A stretch of 26,168 nt of DNA, from IMG/VR virus record IMGVR_UViG_3300012930_000328, positions 1-26,168 of that record. One strand, 5' to 3'. This DNA is from a virus. Made by a program: the position numbers and the translations under genes. Positions 3,175-26,168 of this stretch are shown piece by piece; the stretch's first letter is position 1, and each line of letters opens with the position of its first letter. The notes under the pieces were generated by a model. The model saw only the letters and a program-made list of their open reading frames with translations, was not told the origin of the DNA and made no database searches.

Positions 3175-3366
3175 GGTCATTTTTCACGGTAGGGCGCGAA
3201 GTAGAAGGGCCCGAGAGATATTGAAGCATGAATACGGCATCGAGGCGCGCTCACGAGAGAGCATCGAGAGAACTCCCTGACGTTGCATCGTAATTCACAC
3301 ATCGTCGGGATCTTTCGCCTTCGTCCTCGCTCCCTTCGGTCGTGCAGCTTGCGCTCAAGATGACAG
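3175..3366. repeat. MITE-like repeat, family A copy 1 (degenerate left end)
   Basis: This is the first of three copies of an element of about 195 bases. Its right part closely matches 5335-5434 and 10015-10113: AACTCCCTGACG, then ATCGTCGGGATCTTTCG, then GCTCAAGATGACAG. The left end, GTCATTTTTCACGG at 3176, is a decayed version of the CTGTCATCCTGAGCG end seen in the other copies. Together with the hairpin repeats at 3454-3517 it fills the 450-base gap before the next gene. I see no gene in that gap. Confidence 0.7.
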
Positions 3367-3453
3367 ATTCGTGCGGTATGGATAGGACACGCAAGTTCAC
3401 GTGCGGTCATGTTGAATCCCGCATGTAGGACCAGCGCTAAAGCACATCTTCTA

Positions 3454-5187: not shown

Positions 5188-5238
5188 TGACAGGTTCTTA
5201 TCAGGCCCAAGCTTCAGTCATGCGATGACCCCTTGCCT

Positions 5239-5434
5239 CTGTCATCCTGAGCGAAGCGCGAGCGCATGCGAGCGCGCAGTCGAAGGATCCCGAGAATGTC
5301 TGCGCCATGAATGCAGCATCAAGACGTTCTCACGAGAGAACTCCCTGACGCTTCATGGCAGATGAAACATCGTCGGGATCTTTCGACTTCGGCCTTGCTC
5401 CCTGCGGTCGTTCGGCCTGCGCTCAAGATGACAG
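5239..5434. repeat. MITE-like repeat, family A copy 2
   Basis: This 196-base element has terminal inverted repeats CTGTCATCCTGAGC / GCTCAAGATGACAG (13 of 14 bases complementary). A second nested inverted pair follows: AGTCGAAGGATCCCGA / TCGGGATCTTTCGACT. It could fold into one long hairpin. It lies in the 349-base gap between the portal and protease genes. It is preceded by a GGTTCTTATCAG...GCTTCAG box (5193-5217) and followed by a family C repeat (5477-5520). No transposase is encoded. Confidence 0.8.
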
Positions 5435-5536
5435 GTTAAGACGATCTGGTTTTTCCCAAGATTAAAGTGCATTTTCCAGAACATTCTCTTTTCGCAGCCG
5501 GAAGGCCGCTCTTCCACCAAGCCACAGGAGTATCCA

Positions 5537-9861: not shown

Positions 9862-10113
9862 GGTTCGTATCAGGGCAGGAGCTTCAGTCGTGCCTACGAA
9901 TAAACCTTATGTCTGTCATCCTGAGCGAAGCGTGAGCGCATGCGAGCGCGCAGTCGAAGGATCCCGAGAGTGCCTGTGGATAAATGCAGCATCAAGGCGT
10001 TCTCACGAAACAGAGAAAACTCCCTGACGTCGCATGGTAGATGAAACATCGTCGGGATCTTTCGACTCCGACCTCGCTCCCTTCGGTCGTTCCGCCTCCG
10101 CTCAAGATGACAG
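9862..10113. repeat. Box B plus MITE-like repeat, family A copy 3
   Basis: A box GGTTCGTATCAGGGCAGGAG followed by CTTCAG (9862-9887) leads into a 201-base family A element (9913-10113). The element has termini CTGTCATCCTGAGCG and GCTCAAGATGACAG and the inner inverted pair AGTCGAAGGATCCCGA / TCGGGATCTTTCGACT. All three family A copies point the same way. Upstream, 9833-9860 has a CTTGGCTTTTGGCTCTTGGC run, inverted relative to 2141-2166. These account for the 359-base gap; no gene is seen. Confidence 0.8.
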
Positions 10114-10166
10114 GGCAATGGCGATGTGGGTTTTCCTAACAAGTCGACGCCTGAACCGGAGAAGAA

Positions 10167-12535: not shown

Positions 12536-13420
12536 ATGCCAGCTTGCACTCAATGCGGCGCACCGTATGATCCGAGTTCTTCGTTTTGCCGGGGATGTGG
12601 CTCGGCCTTGCCAGTGCCACCTCCGCCCGCGGTGTCGGCTTCGCCCGCAGTGTCGGCCTTACCGCCTCCGCCCGCGGCCGTCGCGGCGAATCCGCCCTCC
12701 CCGGTCGTGACGCAGGCGCCGCGGAGCACGGGCAGAAAGGTACTGAAGATCGTCGGCATCACTGTGGCGGTTTTTTTTGCGCTCTTTATTGGTCTGGCCA
12801 TCCTGGGCGCGATTCTCGGCGGCGGCAAGAATGGCGCAGGCAACAATCGTGCGGGCAACAGCAATAAAGATAATTCCGCCAACGGCGCGGCCACAACACC
12901 TTCAGATCAGAAGGCCTCCAAACCAGGACAGAACAACGAACCGTGGGCCCAGCCTACGGCGGAGCAACTGGCCAAGGTACAAGGCTCTGACCTGAGCAAG
13001 GAATTCGCCACCAGCGCATGGCGGGTACAATCGCTGATTGCAAACGCTTACGGCTCGCGCATGCTTGGCTTAAACGTCCGTGAGGGCATGGTGCTTCCCT
13101 CGGACGAGGTCATGCGCGATGATCTAAAGGCAAGCAAAAGCAGCATTCGCAACGCCGCCGACCAGCGCGCCTATGACCAGTTGCATGCGTTGTTGTGGCT
13201 GCTCCACGTTGGCCCCAACTTCAAAACGAACGATCCCCGGGACTATCGTTACACTATTTATCGGCCATTTTTTGATGCGGCCGGCGACTGTGCCTCCGCC
13301 ATGTTCACAAATTTTTCCGGCAACACAGTAACACCTGGTGTGGGGAGATGCCTGAGCGAACAGGTCAAACTAAAGAACACCCTCGATAAGGTCAAGGTTC
13401 ACAACTGGGACGACTTCTAG
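12536..13420 (+). CDS. Zinc-ribbon membrane protein, cargo gene
   Basis: This 294-residue protein starts with a zinc ribbon, C-T-Q-C-G-A and C-R-G-C-G-S within the first 23 residues. A Pro/Ala-rich linker and one transmembrane helix (about residues 72-95, IVGITVAVFFALFIGLAILG) follow. After a Gly/Asn/Ser-rich spacer comes a globular domain with two cysteines (D-C-A-S and R-C-L-S). The expected topology is ribbon in the cytoplasm and globular domain outside. ATG 12536 follows GGAGGACAAAG. The open frame to 12398 is longer but runs through the promoter. It is not a structural gene. It has its own promoter and terminator and shares architecture with the gene at 18153. Function unknown. Confidence 0.8.
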   Translation: MPACTQCGAPYDPSSSFCRGCGSALPVPPPPAVSASPAVSALPPPPAAVAANPPSPVVTQAPRSTGRKVLKIVGITVAVFFALFIGLAILGAILGGGKNGAGNNRAGNSNKDNSANGAATTPSDQKASKPGQNNEPWAQPTAEQLAKVQGSDLSKEFATSAWRVQSLIANAYGSRMLGLNVREGMVLPSDEVMRDDLKASKSSIRNAADQRAYDQLHALLWLLHVGPNFKTNDPRDYRYTIYRPFFDAAGDCASAMFTNFSGNTVTPGVGRCLSEQVKLKNTLDKVKVHNWDDF

Positions 13421-13741: not shown

Positions 13742-15844
13742 ATGGGTCTTGCACCTGTTGTTGCTCCGATTGTGGTTGATGCTGCGGGCGCGGAAGCTGG
13801 GGCAGCGAAAGCCGCAACCGCTACTGATGCCGCCGCAGGCAAAATGAAGGACAGCGTTGCCTCAGCCGGAAAAAGCATCGGCGATTCCATGAAGGAGGCG
13901 GCGAAGAGGGTCGGCGAAGCCGTCGACGAAATCTTGACAAAGTTTATCGGCGCTGGAATGGGCGCGAATGCAGCCGCGGAATCGATCGCGTCAGCCTTGG
14001 ACAAACTGTCCGGGGTCTCGATCCTGGGCCCGATCGTCGAAGCCACGGACAAAGTAAAGGACTTTGTCCTCAATTTGAAGAATCTCTCCGGCATCGTGCC
14101 CATGAGCGTGGAAAACATTGTTGAAATCAAAGGCGCAATGGAGGAGGTTGGCGCGTCGTCAGAACATGTGCCCGACATCCTACAGGCGCTGGCGGCGAGC
14201 ATGAAGAAGGCCACCAAAGAAGGCGACGAAAACGCAACAAAGTTCAAGGAACTCGGCTTTTCCACCGACGACTGGAAAAACAAGATGCCGAGCCTCACCA
14301 GCGTTCTGATACAACTGGCTGAGCACATCAAGAACAGCAAAGATCCAATGGGAGAAATGACCAAGGCCCAGGAACTGCTGAGCGACAACTTCAAGGACAT
14401 GATGCCTCTCATGAGCCAGGGAGGAGCCAGAGTAAAGGAGTTGACGGAAGCGCACGCGGAAAATGCCAGGGCCGTCGCCGGCAGCGTGGAAACATTCCAG
14501 CATCTGCACAAAACGGAAGCCGAACTTGCGGACAAAATGCAGACCCTGCTCATCCCGGTCTTCAAGTTTCTGGCGGAAGCACTGGACAACAACCTGCAAG
14601 GGGTCATCCTGCTCATACGGGGGATGATCGACTTCGGCCACACAGTAGTTGCTGAAGCCAAGACCGTCATTGATGCATTCCGCGCACTCAACAAGATCAC
14701 GGTAGACCTGTTCCGCCCGGTCTTCGAATGGCTTAACGGAATGGTCATCCAGGTCATGAACAAACTCCGCGACTTGGGACAGTGGTTTGTGAACATCGGC
14801 CACATCGCGCTTGACGCCTTCACCAAGGTCAAGAATTTCTTCGCCGACCTCCTCCAACCCGTGTTCAAGAGAGTCGGTGAGGCCGTGGACTGGGTCGTCC
14901 AGAAATTCGACGTTCTGAAATCGTGGATTGGAAAAGTCAAAGACGCCATCTTTGAGATGGCCAAGCCGGTCATCGATGCCTTCAACGCCATCGCCAAAGA
15001 GATCGGTGACTTTTTTCACATGCACTGGGGCGATGTGGCCAAAGACGCGCGCGAAGCTGCCGCCACTTTAGGAGCGGACGTAAAAAAAGTTCTGGAAGCC
15101 GCGCAAGGACCGGCGCCCGCGGGTCCGAATGAGCAGTTTGGAGCTTCTGTTTCGGCCACAGTGTCGGTTGAAGGTAAGAAAACAACCGAGGTCAAAGACG
15201 GCGTCGCCAAGCGCACCGCCGCTGTCAAGCAGGGTGAAACCGCGTGTACCGCTGCCATCCAGATGGCCGGAGCCGTAGCGGTTGCTGCCACCGGCGCCGC
15301 CAACGCCCAGGTGGTCAAGAGTGATAAGGACGCCGGGGTGCAGGCCGTGTTCTTCGAGCAGCAGGTGGATTTACAGAAGCTTGGGCTTCTCGCCAGTTAC
15401 ACCTCAAAAGTAAAAATCATTGACGGCAAGGTGCTGGCCGATGCCGAAACGGCGGAAAAGAAATCGCTGGAAAAGCGGAAAGAGACTTTCCATAAATACT
15501 TTCAGGCCATCAGCGGCTACTTCACCACATTCATCAACGGCATGATCACCGGCAATCAGACGGCCGCCCAGGCTTTTTCCAAGATGGTCACCGACATGGC
15601 CAATCAGTTTCTCCAAGGACTGGAAAAACAACTCTCCGCTTTCATTGAGAAGAAGCTGATGGAAGTGTTCATCCACGAGAGTGCGGAGAAAACCAGGACG
15701 CAGCCAACCAGGCGTCTCATGCCAAGGAAGGTGAACGCACAGCCTTCTCCGCGGCCAAGCATGCTTATGATTCAGTCGTTGGCACGCCGTACGTCGGCCA
15801 CATCCTTGCTCCGATCGCCGCGGCGGCGGCCTTTGCCGGTATAG
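13742..15844 (+). CDS. Tape measure protein, N-terminal and central part (frameshifted near the C-terminus)
   Basis: The tape measure sets tail length and takes part in DNA ejection. The first about 650 residues are typical: Ala/Lys-rich helical N-terminus, long coiled-coil-like stretches, and a hydrophobic segment near residue 285 (GVILLIRGMIDFGH). Amphipathic repeats (V-K-N-F-F-A-D-L-L-Q-P-V-F and similar) follow, then FTTFINGMITGNQTAAQAFS before the C-terminal domain. After residue about 650 the frame turns into Arg/Pro-rich nonsense (R-T-Q-P-T-R-R-L-M-P-R), while the -1 frame carries the expected C-terminus. The break is at the AAAA run 15689-15692. ATG 13742 follows GCGGAGG. Confidence 0.9.
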   Translation: MGLAPVVAPIVVDAAGAEAGAAKAATATDAAAGKMKDSVASAGKSIGDSMKEAAKRVGEAVDEILTKFIGAGMGANAAAESIASALDKLSGVSILGPIVEATDKVKDFVLNLKNLSGIVPMSVENIVEIKGAMEEVGASSEHVPDILQALAASMKKATKEGDENATKFKELGFSTDDWKNKMPSLTSVLIQLAEHIKNSKDPMGEMTKAQELLSDNFKDMMPLMSQGGARVKELTEAHAENARAVAGSVETFQHLHKTEAELADKMQTLLIPVFKFLAEALDNNLQGVILLIRGMIDFGHTVVAEAKTVIDAFRALNKITVDLFRPVFEWLNGMVIQVMNKLRDLGQWFVNIGHIALDAFTKVKNFFADLLQPVFKRVGEAVDWVVQKFDVLKSWIGKVKDAIFEMAKPVIDAFNAIAKEIGDFFHMHWGDVAKDAREAAATLGADVKKVLEAAQGPAPAGPNEQFGASVSATVSVEGKKTTEVKDGVAKRTAAVKQGETACTAAIQMAGAVAVAATGAANAQVVKSDKDAGVQAVFFEQQVDLQKLGLLASYTSKVKIIDGKVLADAETAEKKSLEKRKETFHKYFQAISGYFTTFINGMITGNQTAAQAFSKMVTDMANQFLQGLEKQLSAFIEKKLMEVFIHESAEKTRTQPTRRLMPRKVNAQPSPRPSMLMIQSLARRTSATSLLRSPRRRPLPV

Positions 15845-16116
15845 TGGCCCTGGGTTCCGCCGAAGGCGGGCAATACCTGGTTCCCGGACCGCAGTTGACT
15901 ATGCTGCACGCGCAAGAAATGGTCCTACCCGCGGGACTGGCGGGCCGGATGCGGGATGTAATCGATGGCGGAGGCGGCGGAGGTGCAGGCGCTGTCCACG
16001 TCCATATGAACGTGAACGCCATTGACTCCAGTTCGTTCAAAGATACTCTGGGCCGGCATGGACACATGATCGGTGAGCTGGTCACGAAGGCGATGAAGAG
16101 AAAAGGGATGAAGTGA
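15693..16116 (+). CDS. Tape measure protein, C-terminal part in the -1 frame
   Basis: This frame reads N-Q-D-A-A-N-Q-A-S-H-A-K-E-G-E-R-T-A-F-S, then AAKHAYDSVVGTPYVGHILA. After a Pro/Ala segment it continues GSAEGGQYLVPG, H-A-Q-E-M-V-L-P and a Gly-rich run, ending K-R-K-G-M-K. AFSAAKHAY...PYVG...LAP and the EMV(L/I)P block are the usual end of siphophage tape measure proteins. No credible start exists where the frame opens, so it belongs to the 13742 gene. Adding one A at 15689-15692 would restore one frame of about 791 residues. The cause is either a single-base deletion in the prophage or a sequencing error. Confidence 0.8.
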
Positions 16117-16262: not shown

Positions 16263-16424
16263 ATGGCAGTTTGTACGTGGTGGTGCACCAACGATCCGGC
16301 TGGCGACATCGGTTTCGCGAAAGAAAAACGAATACCAATGTCTCTTCCCCAAAAGCCTCTTGTGTGGCACACTGATACCTCCCATCGGGTTGTACCAATA
16401 CAGGAATCTGTTAGCCGACTATGA
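16263..16424 (+). CDS. 53-residue protein, first gene of a coupled cargo operon
   Basis: This short protein begins MAVCTWWCTNDPAGDIGF and has a C-T-W-W-C pair near its N-terminus. It has no signal peptide or membrane segment. Two facts support it despite its size. A TGGAAGGA ribosome-binding site lies about 13 bases before ATG 16263. Its TGA stop overlaps the next gene's ATG as ATGA, the same 4-base overlap seen at the two following junctions. I do not recognise a family. As first gene of a coupled set it could be a small partner or inhibitor of the peptidase-like protein that follows. Confidence 0.6.
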   Translation: MAVCTWWCTNDPAGDIGFAKEKRIPMSLPQKPLVWHTDTSHRVVPIQESVSRL

Positions 16425-16945
16425 CGATGATTATTGGTCGCGGGTCAGAGCGTGATCGTGCCGCACTGCAATTGTTTACTACTGCCAATCGCTCCTATAT
16501 TGAGAACGAGCGCCCCGATGAGGAGCGTGCCGTTGAGGGGCTCCAAGCTGCACTTCGATTCGCGAAAGCTATCAGCCCAACAGCTAAATGTCGTTCCTTA
16601 ACAGCGATGTACAACTGTTTGGGCCTGGTTTTTGCGTCCCGGCGAACGATGGTAGATTGCAAACATCTCGATGTTATCCTCCGCGATGATGGATTTTCCC
16701 CGATCCCAAAAGTGCAAGCTATGGAGGGTGATGTCGTTGTCTACCGAAGAAATGGCATCTCACAGCACGTTGGGATCATCTATGAATTGCGGGATATCAG
16801 CTTGCAGCATAACGGGTCGCAGATCGAGTTTTGGGTGCTCAGCCAATGGGGCGAGGACGGCGAGTACCTTCACAAGATGGGAGAAGTGCCCACAATTTAC
16901 GGCAACCAGTTGGAGTTTTGGAGCGAAAGGAAGCCTATACGGTGA
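16421..16945 (+). CDS. NlpC/P60- or CHAP-like cysteine peptidase/amidase
   Basis: This 174-residue protein has a papain-like layout. The candidate nucleophile Cys66 lies in AMYNCLGLVFASRR. A central M-E-G-D-V-V-V-Y-R-R strand turn leads into I-S-Q-H-V-G-I-I-Y with candidate His116. The later polar block S-Q-W-G-E-D-G-E-Y-L-H would supply the third residue. GD(L/V)VxY...HVGI is characteristic of NlpC/P60 and CHAP domains, which cut peptidoglycan peptides or act as other amidases. There is no signal peptide, so it acts in the cytoplasm or is delivered by a partner. ATG overlaps the previous stop (ATGA) and has no separate ribosome-binding site. Confidence 0.65.
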   Translation: MTMIIGRGSERDRAALQLFTTANRSYIENERPDEERAVEGLQAALRFAKAISPTAKCRSLTAMYNCLGLVFASRRTMVDCKHLDVILRDDGFSPIPKVQAMEGDVVVYRRNGISQHVGIIYELRDISLQHNGSQIEFWVLSQWGEDGEYLHKMGEVPTIYGNQLEFWSERKPIR

Positions 16946-17550
16946 GCTTTTCTGCGGCGTTGCAACAGATCGAATCTCATGACTTTGCTGCGCATCTCGG
17001 CGTAGCAAATAATCTCGAAATGCTATACACGCTCGCTGGTCAAGAGCAAGTGGTGAAGGAACTGACCACTTCGCTGCTTGACTATACCGTGGCTGTCCGC
17101 CTGCTGACACATGTCGGCTCCATAATTCAGGAACAGGAAGACGTTCGTTTTCGGAATCCCCGAGATGCGGCGATTGCTGTTTATATCTGGGCTCTGGCAC
17201 AATCTCAACCGGCGCTCGCGGGGCTCGCAGCATCCGCTGCACTGAATGCGCCGCGGCTTTGGTGGGCAAAAAGAGCAGCTCTTAATGTAACTAGTGGTAC
17301 CTGGATGGAGGGTACCGCTGAGGCGGGAGCGCACAAGTTAATGACAAGAGCCACCGACTGGAAAGATGGTGGAGCTGGTCGGAAGGACGTTCTCATTGTA
17401 AGCGACCCGGGAAAAGATATGATCCGTGCGGGGCGAGTACTCCAATCGGAGCTTCTGAATCTGAACACGAATAACTTAGAGTCGGTGATCACAGACGCCG
17501 ACTATTCAACGAACGCCGTTTCAGAACAAACCGACGTGATACGAAAATGA
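16942..17550 (+). CDS. Helical protein of unknown function, third gene of the cargo operon
   Basis: This 202-residue protein is mostly helical. The first half contains AALQQIESHDFAAHLGVANN, then VVKELTTSLLDYTVAVRLL and F-R-N-P-R-D-A-A-I-A-V-Y-I-W-A-L. A Trp/Ala-rich segment, NAPRLWWAKRAALN, follows near residues 110-123, and the C-terminus is polar. The Ala-rich central helices (Q-P-A-L-A-G-L-A-A-S-A-A-L) are too polar to be sure membrane segments. GTG 16942 overlaps the preceding TGA (GTGA), and AAAGGA lies about 12 bases upstream. The open frame extends to 16831 but would overlap the peptidase gene heavily. No family recognised. Confidence 0.7.
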   Translation: MSFSAALQQIESHDFAAHLGVANNLEMLYTLAGQEQVVKELTTSLLDYTVAVRLLTHVGSIIQEQEDVRFRNPRDAAIAVYIWALAQSQPALAGLAASAALNAPRLWWAKRAALNVTSGTWMEGTAEAGAHKLMTRATDWKDGGAGRKDVLIVSDPGKDMIRAGRVLQSELLNLNTNNLESVITDADYSTNAVSEQTDVIRK

Positions 17551-18002
17551 TCCGACATTCGTGGAGTTTACTGTGTAGCCGTTGCATCACCGACCCGACA
17601 AGCAAAAACATCACATTGGTTGAGGTGCTTGAGCAGATCAACGCGCCACCAGGTACGGCCTTTCCGACCATGGCTCCTGTCCAGACTGACTTTGTGAGCA
17701 CATGGTACAGGTCTGATCCGAATCAGGGCGAACGAGGAACTGGCAGGATAGTTCTGAACGATCCGGGCGGAGCGTTGTTGGATACCACACAGTTTGCCAT
17801 CGACTTGACTTCCTTCTTTCGCTCCCGGATAGTCACCCGTCGATCCGGGATTAGTCTCGTTGGTCCAGGCGTGTATCATTTCACTGTCGATTTCAAACAG
17901 GAAGGTCAGGAAGAGTGGCAGAATGTAGCACGCATAGCGTTGAATGTAACAATTGCAGAGGGGGCAATCACATTGCAAGGCAGTGCTCTCACAACGCAAT
18001 GA
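17547..18002 (+). CDS. DUF6941-like beta protein, last gene of the cargo operon
   Basis: This 151-residue protein begins MIRHSWSLLCSRCITDPTSKNITLVEV. It has a strand pattern (P-V-Q-T-D-F-V-S-T-W-Y-R-S, T-G-R-I-V-L-N-D-P-G-G) and ends P-G-V-Y-H-F-T-V-D-F...V-A-R-I-A-L-N-V. This fits the DUF6941 type as I remember it: a beta sandwich beginning with CxS...D..t...SL and ending with a G.Y.F.v...g....ar.p..v strand. These proteins have no established function. ATG overlaps the preceding stop (ATGA) without its own ribosome-binding site. A short inverted pair (GCCACT/AGTGGC, 18076-18099) lies downstream, but no T-run follows it. Confidence 0.6.
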   Translation: MIRHSWSLLCSRCITDPTSKNITLVEVLEQINAPPGTAFPTMAPVQTDFVSTWYRSDPNQGERGTGRIVLNDPGGALLDTTQFAIDLTSFFRSRIVTRRSGISLVGPGVYHFTVDFKQEGQEEWQNVARIALNVTIAEGAITLQGSALTTQ

Positions 18003-18152: not shown

Positions 18153-18776
18153 ATGGCATTTTGCAGGAAGTGTGGTGCAGCGCTGAACGAAGGTACGGGC
18201 GTTTGTCATGCGTGCGGCGCGGCGGATGTCGCACCCGCGGGAACACCGCCAGTTGCTGTACCGGCTAAGAAGAAAAGCCGCGTCAAAACAATTTTGCTGG
18301 TGGTCGCAGGCGTTTTTGTAGGACTAATTGTCCTCAGCATGTTGGTGCCACCGGCGCCCAAAAGTTCCTCCGCGTCCAAGCCGCCGGACACCAGTTCATC
18401 CGCTCAACCCAGCGCCACGCCGCAGCAGCAGAAAACCGAGACGGCGTCTTCCCTTTCTCCGGAGAAACAGGAGGAAGGATCGCTTCTGTTGGGAGCCATT
18501 GGCGCGAGACAGATCATGTCCATGACGCCGTATCCCAGCAGTCTTGAATTCAATGCCATTGGTGTGATGGAAAACAACACCGTGTGCTATGCGTATCACG
18601 CCCGCGACAAGCATGGCGAAATGAAAGTGGGCCAGGCGGTCCTGACAGACACCGGAGAGTTCAAGAACTACACGGACAAGGACTTTACTCCGCTCTGGGA
18701 CAAAGAGTGCGCCCACAAGAGCGGCAAAAGCGTGACAGCAAAAGTCGTCGAGGTGCTGAACGCGTCCCTCAAGTAG
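18153..18776 (+). CDS. Zinc-ribbon membrane protein, second cargo gene
   Basis: This 207-residue protein has the same layout as the gene at 12536. A zinc ribbon (C-R-K-C-G-A and C-H-A-C-G-A in the first 24 residues) is followed by a Pro/Ala linker, a basic patch K-K-K-S-R-V-K and one membrane helix (TILLVVAGVFVGLIVLSMLV, about 46-65). Then come a Ser/Pro-rich spacer and a small outer domain, residues about 105-207, with two cysteines (N-T-V-C-Y-A and D-K-E-C-A-H). The outer domain is not obviously related to that of 12536, so only the membrane-anchoring half is shared. ATG follows GGGAGGCC. It ends about 37 bases before a terminator. Function unknown. Confidence 0.78.
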   Translation: MAFCRKCGAALNEGTGVCHACGAADVAPAGTPPVAVPAKKKSRVKTILLVVAGVFVGLIVLSMLVPPAPKSSSASKPPDTSSSAQPSATPQQQKTETASSLSPEKQEEGSLLLGAIGARQIMSMTPYPSSLEFNAIGVMENNTVCYAYHARDKHGEMKVGQAVLTDTGEFKNYTDKDFTPLWDKECAHKSGKSVTAKVVEVLNASLK

Positions 18777-18813
18777 ACCACCGCGCTGAAGCGGACAATA
18801 AGACTTCCATCAA

Positions 18814-18836
18814 GCAGCCTGCGGGCTGCTTTTTTA
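18814..18836 (+). terminator. Rho-independent terminator E copy 2
   Basis: GCAGCC-tgcg-GGCTGC followed by TTTTTTAT repeats the hairpin at 13678 base for base in stem and loop. It closes the second zinc-ribbon gene and lies 23 bases before the next phage tail gene. Confidence 0.8.
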
Positions 18837-18858
18837 TTTCCTTACAAAAAGGCATCAA

Positions 18859-19155
18859 GTGAGCAATATCCTGTTCCCCAAAATTCGCGGGCTGGCCTGG
18901 GACATCACCAAGGCACCCACTTTCAATACGGAAATCCAGGAGTCATTGGCTGGACGCGAAGTGCGCATACAGAACTTCCAGAACCCCATCTGGGAATTCA
19001 CGCTGCACTATGAGTATCTGCTGAACGATCCCAAGGTCCGCGATGAAAACGAACAGACGCCTCTGGAATGCCATCAATATCACTTCGCAAACCACAATTA
19101 CGATGACCGGATGTTCAGCGGGAAATGTGCTACACATAAAATTTGGACGCGATAA
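18859..19155 (+). pseudogene. DUF2460-like tail protein, N-terminal remnant
   Basis: The start, FPKIRGLAWDITKAPTFNTE, then S-L-A-G-R-E-V-R-I-Q-N, P-I-W-E-F-T-L-H-Y-E-Y-L, matches the first about 60 residues of DUF2460 tail proteins (FP...GL.w...k.P.f.T.v...sGrE.Ri......P.w.f.l.Ye.L). Those proteins are normally about 200 residues or more and lie just after the tape measure. Here the match ends near residue 60, after which the frame reads unrelated residues to a stop at 19155. Part of a second gene in another frame is joined on (19025-19222). I read this as a deletion product. GTG 18859 has AAGG about 10 bases upstream. Confidence 0.7.
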
Positions 19156-19222
19156 TACCGACACCTCAACCGCCACGGTAAAGGTCTTAAACGTGGCATT
19201 CACGATTCGGAGGTCGATGTGA
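19025..19222 (+). pseudogene. C-terminal remnant of a second structural protein, in another frame
   Basis: The +1 frame relative to the DUF2460 remnant encodes L-W-N-A-I-N-I-T-S-Q-T-T-I-T-M-T-G, then CSAGNVLHIKFGRDNTDTST, then A-T-V-K-V-L-N-V-A-F-T-I-R-R-S-M and a stop. This is a coherent beta-strand pattern of the kind that ends phage fibre or surface proteins. Its TGA (19220-19222) overlaps the next gene's GTG as GTGA, the coupling expected of a genuine gene end. There is no start codon or N-terminal part. The join with the DUF2460 remnant lies at about 19040-19060. Confidence 0.6.
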
Positions 19223-20122: not shown

Positions 20123-20338
20123 ATGAACTTTGATTTGACGTTCCATACCGCAGAACTGCTTACCATCATGACCGCTGCGGGATACGTAATCCGCGCCGCC
20201 AACCGCGTCTTTACTGTACTGAAAGATTTTCCCCCGCACCGTCACATTAATGGCTCGATTGTCTATCCGGAAGGTTATGAGCCCACTGTCATCCAGCACC
20301 TCTATCCGGACAAGCGTAGCGGAGCCGGAGCAAACTGA
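20123..20338 (+). CDS. Small phage protein upstream of endolysin
   Basis: This 71-residue protein starts MNFDLTFHTAELLTIMTAAGYV and continues N-R-V-F-T-V-L-K-D-F-P-P-H-R-H-I-N-G, then I-V-Y-P-E-G-Y-E-P. The first 25 residues could form a helix that touches the membrane. The PPHRH and YPEGY blocks look conserved-like, as in small proteins I have seen next to phage lysis genes, but I cannot name a family. AAAAGG lies upstream of the ATG. The endolysin gene starts 26 bases after its stop. Confidence 0.65.
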   Translation: MNFDLTFHTAELLTIMTAAGYVIRAANRVFTVLKDFPPHRHINGSIVYPEGYEPTVIQHLYPDKRSGAGAN

Positions 20339-20363
20339 AATCTATTTGGAGGAACGCATCGCC

Positions 20364-20909
20364 ATGTCCGATTTCGCACTCGCATTTGAACACACCATGA
20401 GCTTTGAAGACGATCCCCAGCACCCGGGAAAAGTTACGCATGACGCCGGAGGCCGCACGCGCTTCGGCATCGCGAACAAGTTCCATCCCGGTCTGCCGGA
20501 AGAATTCTGGACTGGTCCGGCCGACGAAGCTCGCGCCCAAGCTGAAACAATTGAACTGGAGCAGTACTGGAGGCCGCTCAGTCTGGACGACGTTGAAGCT
20601 CAAGCTGTTGCATCGAAGATCTTCGATATGGGCGTAAACATGGGCGTGCATCAGGCTGCTATCCTGTCTCAACGTGCGGTGAATTTTGTGCTCTCCATCA
20701 CTGGAGCACAGGCGCTTCCACCTGCGACTCGACTGACCGAAGACGGCGTTATCGGTTCCACAACACTGTTGCATCTCAACAGTCTAGATCCAGCAGATGT
20801 GCTCAAGACTCTCCGGGCTTTCGCTGATGCCTACTATCGGCACATCGTCGGGGTGAACCCCTCACAAGCCGTGAACCTGGACGGATGGCTGCGTCGCGCC
20901 GCAGTATAA
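20364..20909 (+). CDS. Endolysin, GH108-like muramidase with peptidoglycan-binding domain
   Basis: This 181-residue protein should degrade peptidoglycan at the end of infection. The N-terminal domain has D-A-G-G-R-T-R-F-G-I-A near residues 27-37, as in GH108 (DxGGxTxxGI), and a helical segment A-S-K-I-F-D-M-G-V-N-M-G near 90-101. The usual E-G-G-Y-x-x-D-P at the start is replaced by F-E-H-T-M-S-F-E-D-D-P, so the catalytic Glu could be Glu9 or Glu15. The C-terminal part (L-T-E-D-G-V-I-G-S-T-T, then Y-Y-R-H-I-V-G) fits a PG_binding_3 domain. ATG follows TTGGAGGA; the longer frame to 20250 overlaps the previous gene. Confidence 0.8.
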   Translation: MSDFALAFEHTMSFEDDPQHPGKVTHDAGGRTRFGIANKFHPGLPEEFWTGPADEARAQAETIELEQYWRPLSLDDVEAQAVASKIFDMGVNMGVHQAAILSQRAVNFVLSITGAQALPPATRLTEDGVIGSTTLLHLNSLDPADVLKTLRAFADAYYRHIVGVNPSQAVNLDGWLRRAAV

Positions 20910-24572: not shown

Positions 24573-25376
24573 GCGCTGACTCTGACCTAAAGATCGTTGT
24601 CACGCTCTGAGCACGAAGAAGTCTGCACGCGCGACGTCCAGCCCGAGCCCTGGCCTGGACACACGAAACATAAAAGCGATAAAACGCACTAAATGACCTT
24701 GCAATCACGCTGGCCCCAACGATGGCGGCCGCCTTCGATAGGCAACCGTGTTCCGGCAAACACCAGCGCCGATTCCGATTGTGGTGTCTCTAACTTTGGT
24801 GATGCTCACGTCCTGCTTCCGCCCCCTCTCAGGGTTTTATCCAGCTTCAGCTGCGCCTGGTTTTTTACTCCACCAGCTTCCCGTGAAAATGCAGACGATT
24901 AGATCGCAGTATTCAGCCGGTACAAACCCAACGCCTTTTCCACCACAGTCACCGCTGCCAGTCTGCCGCGGGTGCGCAACCACCATCTGGCCTAACATAT
25001 CTCGCCGACGAATTGCTCATACCATCCCGTAGGCCCGATCTGCGAACCGCAGTGTAAGGATGATTAAAATCTAGACGGAGCATATCTAGCAAACTCACGT
25101 ATGCGAGTCACGCACATCGACTCGTCCAGTAGTCTTGGCCACTTGTAGCTATTTTTTGGCTTGTGTGTAAGATCACTTCTCATATCTTTGAGTTTTGCTC
25201 GACCCATCTCGCGTCGGTGCAATTTTGAGGTGAGCTCATCATCTTGTTCCTCCGCCTCAATATGTGAAGACTCACTAACTCCACGGACCCGCGCAAAGAT
25301 TTCTCAACCAGCCTTTCGGCAAATTGCTGGATGAACCCCTTCGGTACGTCACGCAAGCCGAACAAAATCGAAATGG
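24573..25376. other. Non-coding stretch between integrase and transposase remnant
   Basis: I find no credible gene in these about 800 bases. Open frames are short, Pro/Ser/Arg-rich and lack ribosome-binding sites. No tRNA-like cloverleaf or T-loop (GTTCRAAYC) is visible. The chromosome junction of the prophage may lie here. Confidence 0.45.
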
Positions 25377-26168
25377 GTGACGTCGATTGCCCGGTTGACG
25401 GTGGGAGAAGTGGTGACCATCGACGGCAACGCGTTCAGAGGCACGCGCCAGGCAGATGGCAAAGCCATCGTGCATCTGGTTTCTGCCTGGGCCAACGTCA
25501 ACAACATGGGCTGGCCCAACGTAAGGTCGATGACAAGTCCAACGAGATTACTGCGATTCCCCAGCTGCTTCGGGCCCTGGAGTTGAGCGGGACGGTAGTG
25601 ACAATCGACGCCATGGGCTGTCAAAAGGCCACTGCTGAGAAGATCGCGGGGAAGAAGGCTGACTACATTCTGGCGGTGAAGGAGAACCAGCCACTGCTGC
25701 TGGACGACATCAAGGATTCCTTCCAGGTGCTGGCTGCCGCCGTCTCGGAGCAGATCGACTGCGGTTATGGACGCGTCGAACGCCGCACCTGTTCGGTGTT
25801 CGGTGACCTGAGCTTGCTGGAAAAGCCTGCGGAGTGGGCTGCGCTCCGCAGTCTGGTGCGCATCAGGCTGAACGATTCCACAAAGCCACCGGCATACCTG
25901 AGCGCGAGATCCGCTACTACATCAGCAGCCATTCGCCGATACTGGAGCATCGAAAACAAAACTGCACAGGGTGCTTGACGTGGCCTTTGGCGAGGACCTC
26001 AGCCAAAAACGCTCGGGCCATGCTGCCCAGAACTTCTCCGTGGTGAACCGCATCGCTCTGAGCCTGCTCAAGCAGGACAAAACCTGCAAACTCGGCATCC
26101 ACGGCAAACACCTACTGGCCGCTTGGGACCACCAGTACATTCTCCATCTCCTCGGAGTCGAAAATTAA
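25377..26168 (+). pseudogene. ISAs1-family transposase, truncated and frameshifted remnant
   Basis: The parts read E-V-V-T-I-D-G-N-A-F-R-G-T (first DDE aspartate, codon 25422; the usual IDGK reads IDGN) and H-L-V-S-A-W-A-N-V-N-N-M-G. After a frame change near 25510 come V-D-D-K-S-N-E-I-T-A-I-P-Q-L-L and V-T-I-D-A-M-G-C-Q-K-A-T-A-E (second Asp). After another near 25880 comes T-G-I-P-E-R-E-I-R-Y-Y-I-S-S, and a deletion brings in R-R-Y-W-S-I-E-N-K. A third frame then gives L-D-V-A-F-G-E-D-L-S to the stop at the window's end. The N-terminal third is missing. At least three frame breaks make it inactive. Confidence 0.85.

Follow-up and report, generated by a model that had tools for sequence, protein, structure and literature searches.

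A three-gene cassette built around a predicted NlpC/P60-type hydrolase recurs in prophages and a recombinase island: a possible mobile conflict system

What is a tightly packed cluster of small genes doing between two tail genes of a phage? This question is raised by a 26,168-bp IMG/VR virus record (the whole stretch of DNA analysed here, referred to as the window), which carries terminase, portal, capsid, tail-tube, tape-measure, endolysin and integrase genes. A first-pass annotation had described at this site a cargo operon of four coupled genes whose products would act together, among them a cysteine hydrolase of the NlpC/P60/CHAP type and a DUF6941-like protein, and had speculated that the set might serve as an effector, exclusion or defence module.

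The reading frames are located where they had been placed originally (Table 1), and so are the 4-bp overlaps that join them: ATGA (16421-16424) between the first frame (orf1) and gene A, GTGA (16942-16945) between A and B, and ATGA (17547-17550) between B and C. Likewise, two of the three downstream starts are without a ribosome-binding site of their own; B is preceded by AAGGAAG about 7 nt upstream, A has only a distant AGGA, and C has none. The 4-bp overlaps exceed chance, since the same overlaps recur in related cassettes found elsewhere (see below), at both junctions in the loci L022 and L023 and at the B/C junction in L024. A and B overlap by 23 bp in L024 and are separated by a 4-nt gap in L038. 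The A/B pair displays the toxin-antitoxin trait of two adjacent, coupled small genes. What did not hold up was the fourth member of the operon. In its own frame orf1 has a codon signal of 0.44, below that of either alternative frame (0.46, 0.47), it matches no family, and nothing similar lies 5' of A in the relatives; the idea that it might be an N-terminal piece or leader of A was rejected. Hence, the operon consists of three genes, A-B-C, and not of four.

Table 1. Coordinates (window numbering) of the cassette genes and of the surrounding inserted DNA.
Feature	Position	Strand	Basis and remarks
Near-direct repeat (14/17), left copy	16100..16116	+	By eye; at tape-measure stop
Inserted DNA relative to close relative L007	16117..18834		Between tape-measure stop and DUF2460 start; alignment ends at 16114 and restarts at 18835
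orf1, 53 aa, probably no gene	16263..16424	+	Without codon signal, family match or conserved counterpart
Gene A, 174 aa	16421..16945	+	ORF; papain-like NlpC/P60-CHAP type cysteine hydrolase (predicted), Cys66/His116
Gene B, 202 aa	16942..17550	+	ORF; predicted helical, C-terminal tail unmodelled; putative regulator/antitoxin of A
Gene C, 151 aa	17547..18002	+	ORF; probable distant DUF6941 relative
Zinc-ribbon protein, probable single-TM	18153..18776	+	Zn_Ribbon_1 4e-4; weak PHROG Sie-like match 0.005
Strong hairpin followed by T run, terminator-like	18812..18831	+	Sequence; right edge of insertion
Near-direct repeat, right copy	18846..18862	+	By eye; at DUF2460 start

The origin of the cluster becomes apparent when the window is compared with L007, a close relative with about 80% identical DNA and an integrase that is 90% identical at the protein level. 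The distance from the tape-measure stop to the DUF2460 gene is about 140 bp in L007 versus 2.7 kb in the window, and A-B-C is absent from L007. Besides A-B-C, the insertion contains a gene for a zinc-ribbon membrane protein and a terminator-like hairpin. This zinc-ribbon gene is neighbouring cargo outside the conserved cassette and has no counterpart beside A-B-C at the other loci. The 17-nt near-repeat pair on both sides of the slot is, by eye, also present in L007, so that the slot was probably opened in a common ancestor. The lower GC content and deviating codon use noticed in the first-pass annotation were borne out by measurement: GC3 is 0.51-0.57 in A-B-C versus 0.61-0.75 in the head and tail genes, and codon use resembles that of the phage less closely in A-B-C (0.50-0.52) than in these genes (0.57-0.73). 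A-B-C is thus foreign cargo, lodged between two tail genes in a prophage that is broken.

Several other features of the window deserve to be recorded. Genes for zinc-ribbon single-TM proteins are present on both sides of the tape measure (12542-13420 and the downstream gene listed in Table 1), and L007 carries an unrelated lipoprotein gene in the slot upstream of its tape measure; both flanks of the tape measure therefore look like variable cargo slots. Dispersed, MITE- or REP-like repeats of about 150-250 bp occur on both strands between genes, at several places in the window (3192-3367, 5232-5458, 9864-10136) and in L007. As a guess from repeat style, the host might belong to the Acidobacteriota. 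A fragment of an ISAs1-family transposase at the right end (25331-25978) suggests host or IS DNA beyond the integrase.

The damage to the prophage is found on both sides of the cargo. The tape-measure gene carries a frameshift near position 15690, a sequencing error or a sign of decay, and its conserved C-terminus carries on in another frame (15600-16116). The DUF2460 tail gene (18859-19222) ends after about 70 of 218 codons and is fused to fibre-like C-terminal codons. In the relative G003, the points matching this join lie about 12.5 kb apart and enclose DUF2163, tail NlpC, tail-tip and fibre genes; this DNA is absent from the window, an internal deletion relative to G003 for which a metagenome assembly error may be the source. 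The reported location between tape measure and tail-tip genes is consequently correct in name, while the tape measure is frameshifted, DUF2460 is cut, and the tail-tip and fibre stretch is missing. If the breakage is real, the cassette has stayed whole in a prophage that has lost its tail-tip genes and is unable to build a tail, which makes a virion role for A-B-C unlikely.

BLAST-type searches with the single proteins A, B and C against viral contigs, GenBank phages and plasmids gave no useful match. Three further copies, all on IMG/VR contigs (L022, L023 and L024), were found with a degenerate DNA pattern for the A motif NC.G..FASRRT; gene C of L022 extends past the end of the locus. A fourth, L038 on a Bacteroidota-group chromosome, was found when an A profile was run on a draw of 395 genomes from the phylum that includes the genome of L003 (titled Rhodothermaceae). 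Together with the window, A-B-C is therefore present in the same order at five loci, and its members are not homologues scattered singly, in keeping with the proposal that these genes act as a unit. Another draw, of 398 genomes from the phylum that includes the genome of L002 (titled Alphaproteobacteria), contained no cassette and yielded nothing but ordinary NlpC/P60 proteins and L025, a stand-alone relative. L002 and L003 are themselves false loci from a genome-contig scan and were used only as centres for these draws. No second copy turned up in the family or the class to which G627 belongs, no E. coli genome contains DNA resembling the L024 cassette, and nothing above cut-off was found in Pseudomonadota with profile P0004 or PF22091. 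With a single copy among 395 genomes and none among 398, the cassette is rare and widely scattered. A short DNA pattern nevertheless sufficed for copies missed by protein BLAST, and many more may exist.

The degree to which the window genes can be linked to these copies differs from gene to gene. In leave-one-out HMM searches against the window, A was recovered at 4.7e-20 and C, as the sole window ORF matched, at 0.02; B was not recovered. Colinear pairwise comparisons of window C gave z scores of 7.5 (L024), 4.5 (L023) and 4.1 (L038), in each case above all 300 shuffles, and the comparison of window B with B of L038 gave a z score of 4.1, with 0/300 shuffles as high. Since window B was missed by the HMM and yet beats all shuffles against its L038 counterpart, its homology to B of the other cassettes is probable, not proven; it is deduced from position and one weak pairwise score.

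The copy in L024 is located immediately past the portal gene in a P2-like prophage, that in L023 near portal and head genes and just upstream of a gene with a SocA/Panacea antitoxin domain (L023 3762-4610), and that in L022 close to where the retrieved part of a 50-kb contig ends. The copy in L038 (with L045) is positioned at one edge of an island of about 11 kb with serine recombinases that splits comM, a YifB/Mg-chelatase-like gene whose N-terminal half is found at L038 3225-4106 and whose C-terminal half is found at L045 4350-5234. Apart from the Panacea-domain gene of L023, the neighbours of the cassette copies include none that was recognised as a known defence gene. Collectively, these contexts, prophages and a recombinase island, show that A-B-C is horizontally mobile. 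The comM island (L038 3225-4106, L045 1-5234) additionally carries a polymerase-like gene and the sequence ATAYACGGTT at both of its edges.

The A proteins have a signature in common (Y-N-Cys66-x-G, G-D, His116, S-x-W-G...E..H), and the residues invariant in all five homologues are Y64, N65, C66, G68, A72, R74, R75, G103, D104, Y108, H116, S141, W143, G144, E148 and H151. In the structural model of A (mean pLDDT 61; 76-86 over residues 81-120), Cys66 is found at the start of a helix (66-70) and His116 on a strand (113-126). The best Foldseek E-value is 0.016, and the best 50 structural alignments to PDB chains are nearly all to NlpC/P60, CHAP and type VI amidase (Tae) effectors, with Z scores of 5-7. 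A attains 17.5 bits against NlpC/P60 (PF00877), under the curated cut-off of 23, and window A does not match the DUF7689 profile (PF24738), against which its relatives score 16.2 and 14.2 (cut-off 22.6). The candidate catalytic pair and the peptidase-like fold named in the first-pass annotation are thus upheld, the latter weakly; the model supports, and does not prove, that A is a papain-like cysteine hydrolase of the NlpC/P60-CHAP type. Inspection by eye showed no signal peptide in any of the three proteins.

The A profile reaches beyond the cassettes to DUF7689-type proteins that are stand-alone (L025), multidomain (L034), secreted (L032) or C-terminal after an RHS core (L035). With the A model these proteins score 22-58 bits versus at most 8 bits for tail NlpC genes. 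In L035 (862-3183), two orphan RHS-core ends lie in tandem and differ in their C-terminal domains. The first of these ends carries the A-type domain; this RHS gene is followed, with a 4-bp overlap, by a small gene whose product starts like a signal peptide. L026-L028 were discarded as A relatives, being ordinary secreted NlpC/P60 proteins (L026 inspected).

The model of B is helical and of low confidence, and a fold search with it gave no matches. The C proteins of L023 and L024 align with DUF6941 (PF22091) at 6.7e-5 and 2.8e-5 (23.7 and 24.9 bits; cut-off 27) with near full-length coverage, and window C does not match this profile itself. Through these relatives, window C would be a distant relative of DUF6941, in agreement with its initial description as DUF6941-like. 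L037 and L041-L042 were set aside as weak partial DUF6941 matches (only L037 inspected).

None of the families in Pfam, NCBIfam, PHROG and PADLOC claims the three window proteins, let alone all genes of the set, and the relatives give sub-threshold matches at most. PADLOC-DB 2.0.0 yielded no match, whether for the window (E-values up to 1) or for the relatives (E-values up to 5), and none of the papers searched refers to DUF6941 or DUF7689.

We propose, with a probability of roughly 0.42, that A-B-C is a self-contained, horizontally moved conflict cassette, a cargo of prophages and mobile elements that serves the lysogen against other phages or elements and not phage assembly. A would be an intracellular cysteine hydrolase (Cys66-His116) cutting a peptide or amide bond of a cytosolic target. 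B, whose translation is coupled to that of A, would bind A and hold it silent, and the DUF6941-like C, coupled to B, would sense the trigger or help to choose the target. Upon infection, inhibition would be lifted, and A would stop the cell or the invader. We favour this reading because of the recurrence of the cassette, its mobile contexts, its absence from L007, the conserved residues, the RHS toxin relative and the persistence of an intact cassette in a broken tail module. The defence-type role speculated on earlier thus gains circumstantial backing from the mobile contexts and the RHS toxin-domain relative; that A is toxic, that B inhibits it, that C has the part described and that phages are warded off is what we infer. 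Against this reading stand the lack of a PADLOC match, the small number of copies (n=5), the thin homology of B, and an A model with a pLDDT of 61 and Foldseek E-values of at least 0.016. Somewhat short of an even chance, in our estimate, is also the more specific proposition that the cassette is an anti-phage or anti-plasmid system not described before, one that crosses phyla via prophages and comM islands and whose cytosolic NlpC/P60-type hydrolase is controlled by a DUF6941-like protein together with a helical partner.

The mobile contexts, the coupled small genes, the RHS relative with its overlapping downstream gene and the Panacea antitoxin-domain gene near the L023 copy would also fit a plain toxin-antitoxin (addiction) pair, A-B, which stabilises the mobile element without any specific anti-phage role and to which C is an accessory. 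However, three genes are conserved rather than two, and the DUF6941-like C has no obvious place in such a pair; we regard this explanation as rather unlikely. A lower probability still attaches to a moron that alters the envelope or physiology of the lysogen, for example through a peptidoglycan-related amidase or surface superinfection exclusion. NlpC/P60 and CHAP enzymes act mostly on peptidoglycan, and the next gene of the insertion, for a zinc-ribbon membrane protein, has a weak Sie-like match; yet A, B and C show no signal peptide by eye, the zinc-ribbon gene is not a companion of the cassette elsewhere, and the phage already has its own GH108 endolysin (20250-20909).

It is very improbable that A serves as an NlpC/P60 peptidase of tail assembly (lambda gpK or GTA g14-like) and that B and C are tail proteins. 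The position after the tape-measure gene, a weak phage-tail match and the presence of an NlpC-type gene among the tail genes of L007 might be taken in favour of this view, but L007 has this tail NlpC gene at the usual place (14026-14487) without A-B-C, tail NlpC genes score far below the DUF7689-type proteins with the A model, and the cassette also occurs beyond tail operons, including in a non-phage-like island. The earlier judgement that the set is not structural is thereby sustained. Chance or decaying ORFs without function, as the broken prophage (tape-measure frameshift, tail-tip deletion) and the unsupported orf1 might insinuate, are scarcely credible given that gene order and catalytic residues are kept in distant bacteria, and functional loss is possible for the window copy alone.

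Returning to the proposed conflict cassette, it places two unannotated protein families, the DUF7689-like hydrolase clade and relatives of DUF6941, in a common genomic context for the first time and gives them a role that can be tested. It also suggests that cytosolic effectors of mobile conflict cassettes are a further use of the NlpC/P60 fold, which is best known from cell-wall cutting. Like members of the NlpC/P60 and CHAP families (PF00877, PF05257), the A model has the Cys at a helix start and the His on a beta strand within the same general fold; A differs from them by its sub-cut-off scores, the lack of a visible secretion signal and the motif S-K/Q-W-G...E..H, which is confined to the A clade. 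The pattern YNC...GD..Y...H...SKWG....H is common to A and its DUF7689 (PF24738) and RHS C-terminal relatives (L025, L034, L035, L032), but these are stand-alone, secreted or RHS-fused, and neither B nor C is found beside L025, L034 and L035. NlpC/P60-type domains, including RHS toxin domains, have been described as polymorphic toxins (Tox-NLPC/P60; PMC3482391), and these resemble A in their papain-like Cys-His domain and in an overlapping downstream gene as in toxin-immunity pairs, whereas A is free-standing and apparently cytosolic, and it belongs to a unit of three genes. The C proteins of L023 and L024 align over almost the whole DUF6941 profile (PF22091), yet all C proteins stay below its cut-off, and neither A nor B lies alongside L043, a canonical DUF6941 gene. 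With regard to location, the region between the portal gene gpQ and gpA of E. coli P2-like phages is a hotspot of anti-phage systems (old/tin; PMC9122126), and the L024 copy likewise lies directly beyond the portal gene; gpA was not found on its other side up to the contig end, and the A-B-C genes are unrelated to the systems catalogued in PADLOC. Mobile conflict cassettes are a known kind of element, to which A-B-C would add a combination of genes that appears to be undescribed.
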